DNA from: Pseudochrobactrum kiredjianiae
Lineage (GTDB): Bacteria > Pseudomonadota > Alphaproteobacteria > Rhizobiales > Rhizobiaceae
NCBI RefSeq assembly: GCF_030362795.1
Contig: NZ_JAUCBM010000007.1
Coordinates: 1-64,000, forward strand
Reading direction: 5' to 3'
DNA length: 64,000 bases
Of this stretch, positions 19,039-26,643 are shown in pieces (position 1 is the first letter of the stretch; every line of letters begins with the position of its first letter). Made by a program: the position numbers and the translations under genes. A model generated the notes under the pieces. That model had not been told where the DNA came from and searched no databases. It saw nothing but the letters and a program-made list of their open reading frames with translations.

Positions 19039-19415
19039 ATCGGAGAGCCTATACCCAAAAGCGACAGGTTGCGGCGAAAATGGTGATTTCGAGAACCGGA
19101 GCGGAGCGTACCTTGTGGTACGTGAGCACTGGAAGCGCAGATATCGCCATTTGCAGACCAACATGGCGTTTTTAGAGCGGGTGTTTAGACCAACAGGTAA
19201 AAATGTCTCATCCCAAGCTGCTTTACATAAGTTTGCTGACAAAATAGGCTTTCCCTGCATCTGATATTTCAGCATAGGCTTTGAGTTCACTATCAGAATT
19301 AATCCATAGAAGTATATTACAATCCGGCCTTTTGCTTTCCTTATCAGGCGCACATCAATAATCGCATTTCCGGCCATCAACGGCACGGGAACAGCGTGTG
19401 TAAAGAGGAGAGACC
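19039..19415. other. Gap before formamidase gene, with one dispersed palindrome
   Basis: About 377 bases without a gene. The left part holds a copy of the dispersed palindrome (19070-19158). The right part must contain the fmdA promoter; no clear -35/-10 pair or regulator site could be assigned. Confidence 0.5.
19070..19158. repeat. Dispersed palindromic element, copy 1
   Basis: It shares the core GAGAACCGGAGCGGAG...GTAC...GTAC...GAGCACxGGAAG with the element inside the FMN riboswitch (25428-25525). The apical stem here is GTACC-TTGT-GGTAC, whereas the other copy has GTACT-TTT-AGTAC, so the stem is kept by compensating changes. The outer arm (AAATGGTG / CGCCATTTGCAG) is partly degenerate. 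Confidence 0.8.
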
Positions 19416-24929: not shown

Positions 24930-25306
24930 GCTGATCTGCTCCCTGCCTCTATGTCTCTTGCAAAAAAGCGCAGGCTTCTACCCGAACAATTGCCGGAAAT
25001 GACACAAAAAGCAGACACAATCACCCAAATAACAGTCACTATGCGATTCAAAGCAGCGAAATTGACTGTGTAAGCGCTTTATTGTTCCTGCAAAAAGTGA
25101 ATTCGCAGGGGCAATAAAGCTGAAACACTGCTCATCAACCGGCAATTTCACATCATTGATTTTCGGATACGCCTTAAGATTAAACATCGTTTTCAGGACA
25201 CAGCGTTGCCGGATATGCGACTTGATTTATATACAACCGCAACATAAATTCAGCTCATGCCGTGATACTCGGGACTATTCCAAGTATCAGGCATACTAAT
25301 TTTAAT
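24930..25306. other. Gap holding permease promoter and ribN promoter
   Basis: 377 bases between the divergent permease gene and the FMN riboswitch. A candidate ribN promoter is at 25222-25250. An imperfect GATACT...AGTATC hairpin lies at about 25264-25288, just before the riboswitch. Short open frames here show no family features. Confidence 0.5.
25222..25250 (+). promoter_or_regulatory. Candidate promoter of ribN
   Basis: TTGATT and TAAATT are separated by 17 bases, placing a transcript start near 25257, about 50 bases before the first helix of the FMN riboswitch. Confidence 0.4.
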
Positions 25307-25605
25307 CGTTCTCAGGGCGGGGTGTAATTCCCCACCGGCGGTAACAGGCGAAGCCTGAAGCCCGCGAGCGCTTAATTGGGATGAGAAGCAGGCACTGAAC
25401 ATATAGTGCCGACACATATTCTGGTTATAGCGGCTTGCAAATGGTGTTTTTTGAGAACCGGAGCGGAGTGTACTTTTAGTACATGAGCACCGGAAGTAGA
25501 GAAAAACGACATTTGCAAGCCGCTAGAGCCTGAATATCCCAATTAAGGTCAGCAGATTCGGTGTGATTCCGAAGCCGACGGTCATAGTCCGGATGAGAGA
25601 GAGCG
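25307..25605 (+). promoter_or_regulatory. FMN riboswitch (RFN element) with greatly enlarged variable helix
   Basis: All conserved blocks are present in order. P1 is CGTTCTC/GAGAGCG. The 5' core is AGGGCGGGGTG, CCCCACCGGCGG, AGGC-GAA-GCCT and GCCCGCGAGCGC. The 3' core is CAGATTCGGTG, CCGAAGCCGACGGTC, AGTCCGGATGAGAG. Between the two halves a perfect stem (CTTAATTGGGAT/ATCCCAATTAAG) encloses nearly 200 bases, including a 33-base left-side bulge with its own hairpin and a 98-base dispersed palindrome. Normal FMN aptamers have a short helix here. It controls ribN and should bind FMN. Confidence 0.93.
25428..25525. repeat. Dispersed palindromic element inserted in the FMN riboswitch, copy 2
   Basis: A 98-bp imperfect palindrome running from TAGCGGCTTGCAAATGGTG to CGACATTTGCAAGCCGCTA, with the GAGAACCGGAGCGGAG core and an apical GTACT-TTT-AGTAC stem. 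The core also occurs at 19070-19158. Size and symmetry recall the Bru-RS palindromes described in Brucella, but I cannot compare sequences here. Confidence 0.85.
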
Positions 25606-25654
25606 GGGCTGAAATGGCATCATGCACGGTGATTTTTATCGCCGTTATTATGCA

Positions 25655-25715
25655 GTTTTCTTCCCGTACCATTTCCCAATCCCTGGGGTAACGGCTTACG
25701 AGACAGGAAGAAAAC
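25655..25715 (+). promoter_or_regulatory. Shine-Dalgarno-sequestering hairpin of ribN
   Basis: GTTTTCTTCC (25655-25664) is perfectly complementary to GGAAGAAAAC (25706-25715), which contains the ribN ribosome-binding site and ends directly before the TTG start. No U-tract is present. This is the expected expression platform of a riboswitch acting on translation. Confidence 0.65.
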
Positions 25716-25716
25716 G

Positions 25717-26643
25717 TTGAGCCCAATTGCCTCTGTTCAGACTTTAAAACCTACAGTCCGTGGTGCAGCACTGATGCTGGCAGCCTGCGCCGCTTATGCA
25801 GGCGTTAATGTTGCCACCCAATGGGCAGGCACCCGCACCGGCCTTCCGTCGGTTATCATCGCCTTCTGGCAATATGTCATCGCCCTTGTGCTGACTTTGC
25901 CGCTGCTGATCCGCGAAGGCACACGAGCGCTGCGTACCAATCATCTTGGCCTGCATATTATCCGTGTTGGTCTGGCTGCCGCCGGTGTGCAGGTATGGAT
26001 TTTCGCCCTCACCCATGTGCCGATCTGGCAGGTGATTGCGCTTTCCATGACCTCGCCGTTTTTCGTCATTTTGTGCGCGCGCCTGTTCCTGCATGAAGCA
26101 GTGACGCAAACACGCCTGCTCACCACCTTAGTCGGCTTTATCGGCGCATTGATTATCATTGCGCCATGGTCAGACACCTATACGGTCTACTCATTACTGC
26201 CAATTCTGGCTGCTGCATTGTGGGCTGGCTACTCGGTGATGACCAAATATCTGACCCGCTTTGAAACAACAGCCAGTATTTCGGTTTATATGCTGATCCT
26301 GCTCACCCCTATTAACGGTGCGCTCTGGGCTGCATCAGGTATTGGTTTTCCGGAAATCGCAGCACCATCCATGGAAATCTGGACAATTCTGCTGACAATT
26401 GGTGTGCTGACCGCTATGGCACAATATTTCCAGATCGCCGCATATTCAGCAGCAGATGCTGTCTATCTGCAGCCTTTTGATGATCTGAAACTGCCGCTGA
26501 ATGTTATTCTCGGCTGGATCGTCTTTGCCGCGACACCAAGCATCAATTTCTGGCCCGGTGCTCTGCTGATTGTCGGTGCATCGCTCTATCTGATGCGTCA
26601 GGACAGCGGCCGATCGACGACACGCCTACAGGCTGCAGAATAG
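25717..26643 (+). CDS. ribN: RibN-type riboflavin importer (EamA/DMT family)
   Basis: This is a 308-residue membrane protein with two EamA repeats, about ten helices, of the drug/metabolite transporter superfamily. RibN proteins of Rhizobiales are FMN-riboswitch-controlled riboflavin importers, and the FMN riboswitch directly upstream is the main reason for this assignment. Conserved-looking stretches are AACAAYAGVNVATQWAGTRT, IAFWQYVIALVLTLP and YSAADAVYLQPFDDLKLPL. The start is TTG, with AGGAAG 6 bases upstream. It is monocistronic, with a strong terminator after the stop. The fold alone would not show the substrate; the riboswitch does. Confidence 0.9.
   Translation: MSPIASVQTLKPTVRGAALMLAACAAYAGVNVATQWAGTRTGLPSVIIAFWQYVIALVLTLPLLIREGTRALRTNHLGLHIIRVGLAAAGVQVWIFALTHVPIWQVIALSMTSPFFVILCARLFLHEAVTQTRLLTTLVGFIGALIIIAPWSDTYTVYSLLPILAAALWAGYSVMTKYLTRFETTASISVYMLILLTPINGALWAASGIGFPEIAAPSMEIWTILLTIGVLTAMAQYFQIAAYSAADAVYLQPFDDLKLPLNVILGWIVFAATPSINFWPGALLIVGASLYLMRQDSGRSTTRLQAAE

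Follow-up and report, generated by a model that had tools for sequence, protein, structure and literature searches.

A dispersed palindromic element within helix P4 of the FMN riboswitch preceding ribN in Pseudochrobactrum

The window, i.e., the whole stretch of 64,000 nucleotides (nt) analysed here, comes from a Pseudochrobactrum kiredjianiae genome of 4.46 Mb in 45 contigs (contig NZ_JAUCBM010000007.1, positions 1 to 64,000); the genus belongs to the family Brucellaceae. It comprises the ribN gene, coding for a transporter of the EamA type, and its leader, in which an FMN aptamer ends 111 nt upstream of the gene. The features of the region are listed below; the aptamer helices of the leader are named P1 to P6.

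25307-25313, + strand: 5' strand of P1 of the FMN aptamer, pairing with 25599-25605; P1 is seen in the predicted fold
25307-25370, + strand: 5' half of the FMN aptamer (P1, P2, P3, and the start of P4), RF00050 half match of 50.1 bits
25371-25382, + strand: 5' strand of P4, a perfect 12-bp inverted repeat with 25536-25547
25391-25410, + strand: small hairpin within P4, 5' of the element (minimum-energy fold)
25416-25537, + strand: dispersed palindromic element, recognised as an inverted repeat and by model R1 (match at 25415-25541, 130.3 bits)
25416-25429, + strand: left end of the element, able to pair with the 5' strand of P4 as a decoy P4 (prefix folding, mean pairing 0.98)
25536-25547, + strand: 3' strand of P4, perfect 12-bp inverted repeat
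25548-25605, + strand: 3' half of the FMN aptamer (P5, P6, and the 3' strand of P1), RF00050 half match of 49.4 bits
25655-25664, + strand: putative expression platform strand, able to mask the ribosome-binding site, a 10-bp perfect complement of 25706-25715, paired in the fold
25706-25715, + strand: strand with the ribosome-binding site of ribN (GGAAG, from the sequence), paired in the fold
25717-26643, + strand: ribN, open frame for an EamA-type transporter of 308 aa (PF00892, 5.6e-20)
19054-19179, + strand: further copy of the element within the window (model R1, 113.3 bits)

RF00050 recognises the leader as two consecutive half matches on the + strand, one at 25304-25435 with 50.1 bits and the other at 25468-25608 with 49.4 bits, in agreement with an earlier, sequence-only reading of this DNA, according to which conserved FMN-aptamer blocks flank a stem. 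Both scores lie below the gathering score of the family (66.2), and a scan of the whole window at that score gave no match; by splitting the aptamer into two below-threshold halves, the element thus causes the riboswitch to be missed by standard annotation. A second, normal FMN riboswitch is located elsewhere in the genome (117.8 bits). The window RibN is 97% identical to the protein of P. asaccharolyticum DSM 25619 and shows 80-82% identity to its counterparts at Brucella loci with FMN leaders, while none of the NCBIfam models matched it above the cut-off. The association of RibN with an FMN riboswitch is known from alpha-proteobacteria (PMC4418817).

The perfect 12-bp stem noted in that reading is present (25371-25382 with 25536-25547), but it encloses 153 nt, composed of the small hairpin, which the earlier reader does not mention, and the palindrome, and not the nearly 200 bases claimed; the entire P4 region of the window measures 176 nt. 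The palindrome is likewise real, although the 98 bp first given are only the inner part of an imperfect inverted repeat of ca. 122 bp (25416-25537), whose arms of 36 nt each (25416-25451 and 25502-25537) are 86% complementary and lie 50 nt apart. A further copy, placed at 19.1 kb by the earlier reader, was indeed recovered there (19054-19179). The leader as a whole has a folding z-score of -8.27, and none of 100 shuffles was equally stable.

The element is present in about 20 copies in its own genome, where blastn with the palindrome gives 21 matches (a figure that includes the query itself, its match on the reverse strand, and fragments of split copies), and six congeners yield 6 to 16 blastn matches each. 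In an alignment of 37 copies, from which model R1 was built and in which the window copy is one of the rows, 24 of the 133 columns are invariant and 33 consensus pairs can be recognised, 22 of them with paired changes on both sides. The covariation between the arms amounts to 0.420, as against 0.165 in shuffles, none of 500 reaching the observed value, which relatedness of the copies can nevertheless inflate. The outer 14 pairs are all variable and their letters differ widely among copies, yet 88% of them are paired. The family is thus a structured, covarying repeat. A strand test at paired positions with a Watson-Crick consensus counted 36 G-U against 11 A-C combinations (78 against 46 in shuffled columns; P 0.97), and since no strand signal emerges from this count, selection at the RNA level is unsupported.

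Matches to model R1 are found in 10 of 31 genomes of the family, the own genome included, with 58 in one of them (G022). B. oryzae has 35, B. cytisi 24, B. pseudintermedia 11, and B. tritici 26, Paenochrobactrum gallinarii a single one, and Devosia algicola none; the four B. species were formerly called Ochrobactrum. Similar sequence is also carried by plasmids of Sphingobium, Shinella, Phyllobacterium, Agrobacterium, and others (29 records), while a 99-base core had no match at E 0.01 among 50,697 phage records, and no other Rfam family reached its gathering score around 17 element loci of the own genome and L104. The description of the repeat as mobile-like fits in so far as its presence is polymorphic at both window copies; no mobilising enzyme was found, the search having been for PF01797 (RAYT type), which has no match in the genome, and a RAYT origin was rejected on that ground. 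As regards features of miniature transposable elements (MITEs), inverted repeats are present, the 19.1-kb copy has, by reading, a possible TTTA on each side, and the ribN copy has a near-direct repeat. The 19.1-kb copy is found in the window strain and in G003 and is absent from G001, G002, and G006 (the state in G004 and G005 is ambiguous); it is situated (window 19040-19190) directly behind a terminator-like T-tract. It is worth mentioning that two other copies of the own genome (L195:1318-1536 and L196:1373-1593, i.e., G000:C3 near 57 kb and 143.8 kb) have their central loop interrupted by another repeat, about 90-100 bp long and with inverted repeats of its own, reminiscent of IS711 entering Bru-RS1.

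The copies have a preferred address at stop codons, counted here when they close a frame that stays open for 100 codons or more. The right end lies within -15 to +8 nt of such a codon in 49 of 70 copies (16/21 in the own genome, 14/20 in G022, 12/18 in the genus Brucella, 7/10 in other genomes of the family, 0/1 in G250) and the left end in 4/70. These 70 are high-scoring picks, among them 20 of the 58 matches in G022 and 18 of the 96 from four Brucella genomes; they comprise L004-L018, L022, and L192-L196 from the own genome, L152-L171 from G022, L172-L189 from the genus Brucella, and L190, L191, L198-L205, and L104, a partial own copy (L197, 47.7 bits) having been left out. Of the 36 genus loci counted initially, to which the ribN-leader loci L052-L054 and L056 and the contig-end copy L062 do not belong, 30 had the right end within -11 to +5 of a stop codon, two of the six misses being ribN copies. 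The mRNA of the gene ending at the stop codon would carry the strand opposite to that present in the ribN leader. Five of the 29 plasmid records were compared with their deposited annotation: a gene ends 8 nt from the match in Sphingobium and Shinella and 21 nt from it in Allorhizobium, where the match stops 12 nt before the query end; two Phyllobacterium copies do not lie at such an address, and neither do the two copies found within riboswitches, the one at ribN and the one in G250 described below. What appears, from its last codons and frame length, to be the same gene has the element close behind its stop codon in three genus genomes (L016, L058, and L074). The outer arms of these three elements are quite unlike each other, so that the arms would appear to evolve rapidly at a constant address. 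A stop-codon address of this element was not found described in the literature accessible to the search.

Comparison of related ribN leaders, proposed by the sequence-only reading as a way to find the empty site, revealed it in strain AFS058694 (locus L028). The P4 region is 170-179 nt long in six of the seven Pseudochrobactrum leaders, that of the window included, and 66 nt in AFS058694; in eight leaders from outside the genus (two Paenochrobactrum, three Brucella, one Rhizobiales, and two Devosia) it measures 17-22 nt. The comparison covered 19 ribN loci, 13 of them outside the genus, with 10 short-P4 FMN leaders (the eight just mentioned having been measured) and three loci, L040, L042, and L043, without a pattern match. 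The insert is thus a dispersed element lodged in a non-conserved helix, as first supposed, and it is not conserved in all relatives, because one leader of the genus is free of it and P4 is short in other genera. RF00050 matches the element-free leader once, with 110.7 bits, above the gathering score, while the six element-bearing loci scanned with it (five of Pseudochrobactrum and L104) give two halves each, all below it (44.7-52.3 bits). In five genus orthologues the left arm reads GCGTGCTGAAAATG, as against GCGGCTTGCAAATG in the window (25430-25443), which is the exact complement of the window right arm and occurs in the window strain alone. The comparison of these stretches suggests a likely template-switch correction of a quasi-palindrome, and it is because the left arm was rewritten to match the right one that the earlier reader saw a clean palindrome. 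A record titled Bacillus subtilis SK6B4 (L041, JAHREI010000007.1) contains a Pseudochrobactrum-like ribN locus with 96% identity to that of the window and is probably mislabelled or contaminated.

A search of 297 genomes of the order with the FMN family model yielded 123 matches, corresponding to 121 loci, of which 118 score above the gathering score, one is weak, and two are split into adjacent halves, namely the ribN leader described here and G250:C1:856424-856710, from another family. The supposition that a repeat within a riboswitch is unusual is borne out by this proportion of 2/121, a lower bound, the filters of the split search having been strict enough to miss longer inserts; a search of 385 genomes of the class, also strictly filtered, added no split pair to these two. 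The covariance search recommended by the earlier reader thus uncovered one more FMN riboswitch with the insert. The G250 leader has a P4 region of 161 nt, in which the model of the element family scores 71.7 bits (E 1.9e-17); with respect to the mRNA, this copy is oriented like the one in the ribN leader, and the gene downstream codes for an EamA protein (PF00892, 5e-13) 40% identical to the window RibN over 270 columns. Among 13 FMN loci from five congeners of G250, five, one per congener, have G250-like downstream DNA, and their P4 is 13-16 nt long. As the same element family occupies the same helix in transporter leaders of two families, it must have entered P4 at least twice, and by comparison of the sequences the G250 case is an independent gain in the leader of a homologous transporter gene.

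Several other FMN matches were considered as possible carriers and rejected: the weak single matches in G621 and G559, obtained in the search of the class, look degenerate, with nothing near the 12-base core motif in 1.4-kb stretches, the long matches in G015, G007, G051, G060:C8, and G009 have a P4 of only 23-36 nt, and that in G140 has, by eye, a short P4 too. The FMN match in G060:C15 scores 63.6 bits. By reading, the extra length in G015, G140, and G079 lies in P3 and not in P4; the riboswitch of G079 (L105, G079:C1:11500-12700), below the gathering score, has a long AT-rich insertion in P3.

With respect to the history of the insertion at ribN, the notion that a variable arm grew in place and resembles other repeats by chance has practically nothing left to recommend it: P4 does vary in length among leaders, but the insert scores 130 bits with the model of dispersed copies, which blastn finds independently, and the lack of the element in an orthologous leader and in other genera contradicts growth in place. 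A stronger competitor is that the element-free state is ancestral and P4 was entered repeatedly, or that AFS058694 acquired its leader by recombination. This would agree with there being a single element-free strain, whose 66-nt P4 arm has a hairpin of its own, formed, by reading, by a stretch at the place of the small P4 hairpin of the window; we give it a real though clearly minor share of the probability, for the following reasons. The elements of the six genus leaders align at the same place, and the letters CGACATTTGCAAGCC are common to three ribN copies in alignment A1 and occur together in none of its 34 other rows. The gene tree of ribN places L028 next to the element-bearing P. saccharolyticum with a support of 100/100, in a tree of one gene with three of nine inner branches weak and the genus node at 85/89, and these two leaders have GGACAGC where the other five of the genus have GGTCAGC, although Paenochrobactrum L036 also has GGACAGC. 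Moreover, the element in L029 is flanked by a near-direct repeat, TATTCTGRTTA (TATTCTGGTTA on the left and TATTCTGATTA on the right), of which the element-free leader retains one similar stretch, as fits a deletion between the repeats. On the strength of the grouping of L028 with P. saccharolyticum and of the letters common to the three ribN copies, one gain and one loss are favoured, and a single old insertion in the ancestor of the genus followed by one clean loss, as we infer, in AFS058694 fits best.

We consider it likely that the leader is a translational FMN riboswitch whose peripheral P4 was lengthened by the element, which was later lost in one strain and gained separately in another family. 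The palindrome of ca. 122 bp would have entered P4 before the sampled Pseudochrobactrum genomes diverged, and would simply extend this helix, leaving the aptamer core undisturbed, given the peripheral position of P4 and the self-pairing of the element. In the predicted full-length fold of the window leader, P1 and all 12 pairs of P4 are kept and the element forms a long arm; P4 also forms in G250 and, altogether, in five of the six element-bearing genus leaders, and is missing from the minimum-energy folds of the element-bearing P. saccharolyticum and of the element-free leader, so that folding does not separate the two states. Downstream of the aptamer, GTTTTCTTCC (25655-25664) can pair with GGAAGAAAAC (25706-25715), the latter containing the ribosome-binding site. 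By reading, each of the six other genus leaders also shows the ribosome-site pairing in its fold; in five leaders of other genera it is mixed, none being seen in Paenochrobactrum gallinarii and Brucella tritici. The riboswitch is probably still functional, acting by occlusion of the ribosome-binding site: with FMN bound to the aptamer, the pyrimidine tract at 25655-25664 would cover the site at 25706-25715, and less RibN would be synthesised. A clean loss in AFS058694 would have followed, and in another bacterial family a member of the same repeat family would have reached P4 of a homologous transporter leader independently.

The opposite view, that the leader no longer senses FMN and the expression of ribN has become fixed, may draw on the insert of more than 120 nt between the aptamer halves and on the P4 not predicted in P. 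saccharolyticum, and we regard it as rather improbable. The aptamer halves are the best conserved parts of the seven genus leaders (mean pairwise identity of 0.948 and 0.946, compared with 0.840 for the platform and 0.738 upstream), the RibN proteins are 0.956 identical against 0.644 at the four-fold sites of ribN, the ribosome-site pairing is kept across the genus, and long stem-loop insertions are tolerated by many riboswitches (Barrick and Breaker 2007, PMC2258182). The claim of the sequence-only reading that the aptamer can still fold accordingly appears sound, as judged from the predicted P4 in five of six genus leaders, the conserved halves, and the intact ribN. Of the effects that the earlier reader thought possible, on folding speed, mRNA stability, or response, the first is made plausible by prefix folding, in which the left end of the element holds the 5' strand of P4 at the RNA ends examined from 25435 to 25520 (pairing 0.98) and releases it at 25547 (decoy 0.00, true P4 0.92); the element might thus act as a timer, the aptamer being completed late, when the palindrome closes. 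Four more orthologues behave alike (plateau 0.82-0.98), and in six leaders the element is better conserved (0.905) than the adjoining 5' part of P4 with the hairpin (0.610), but the element core is conserved among paralogues too, hence its conservation in the ribN leader is by itself no proof of a role. The decoy is lacking in P. saccharolyticum (0.03), 11% of random 16-mers of the window pair with the 5' strand of P4 equally well, equilibrium prefix folds differ from kinetics, and a translational switch has no need of timing; consequently, we think such a delay unlikely, if marginally less so than a broken switch. To the wider proposal, in which two or more captures, in two families, made a stop-codon-anchored alpha-proteobacterial element the P4 arm of the FMN riboswitch of a riboflavin transporter, where selection now keeps it and it times aptamer competence, we attach the same low credence as to the broken switch.

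The riboswitch itself resembles RF00050 (the RFN element) elsewhere in having both aptamer halves in order, a position upstream of ribN, and what would be a translational platform, and it differs in its P4 of 176 nt, filled by a dispersed repeat, as against 17-22 nt in the measured leaders of sister genera. It shares with the insertions of Barrick and Breaker (PMC2258182) a long non-conserved stem-loop at a permitted site, and is set apart from them by the insert being a copy of a genome-wide repeat, by the element-free orthologue, and by the second independent case. In Streptococcus pneumoniae a BOX element lies between two T-box riboswitches, and its authors judge the switch still functional (PMC3049150). 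There, too, a dispersed repeat is joined to and transcribed with riboswitch RNA; however, BOX lies between two T-boxes, while the ribN element is situated inside a helix of one aptamer. Comparable by description are Bru-RS1 and Bru-RS2 of Brucella, which are palindromes of similar length (about 103-106 bp) in tens of copies and belong to the same family, Brucellaceae (PMC10800456, PMC3163539, and PMC2267715). For Bru-RS1, a site beside the lactate permease gene in B. abortus is given in PMC3163539; model R1 matched none of 30 lactate-permease loci, drawn from 25 of 35 Brucella-genus genomes, among which B. abortus was not identified. REP and ERIC-type repeats of enterobacteria are short palindromic intergenic repeats as well; we know of no sequence relationship between them and the ribN-leader element, and, unlike with REP, the associated transposase family PF01797 is absent from the Pseudochrobactrum genome.

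Among the matches listed, neither the literature on repeats in riboswitches nor that on the repeat itself names the element or an FMN riboswitch with an insertion of this kind; as far as those matches show, an FMN aptamer helix that houses a dispersed palindrome, together with a natural allele free of the element and another, independent case, is new. The repeat family, with its unusually exact address at stop codons, deserves a separate study. Regulatory RNAs carrying such repeats are lost to standard Rfam annotation, as is seen from the six genus leaders and the second case, all below threshold. Finally, the natural alleles with and without an element of ca. 120 nt in sister strains of Pseudochrobactrum offer a test of how much RNA the arm of an aptamer can carry, and of whether a delay in folding alters a translational switch.
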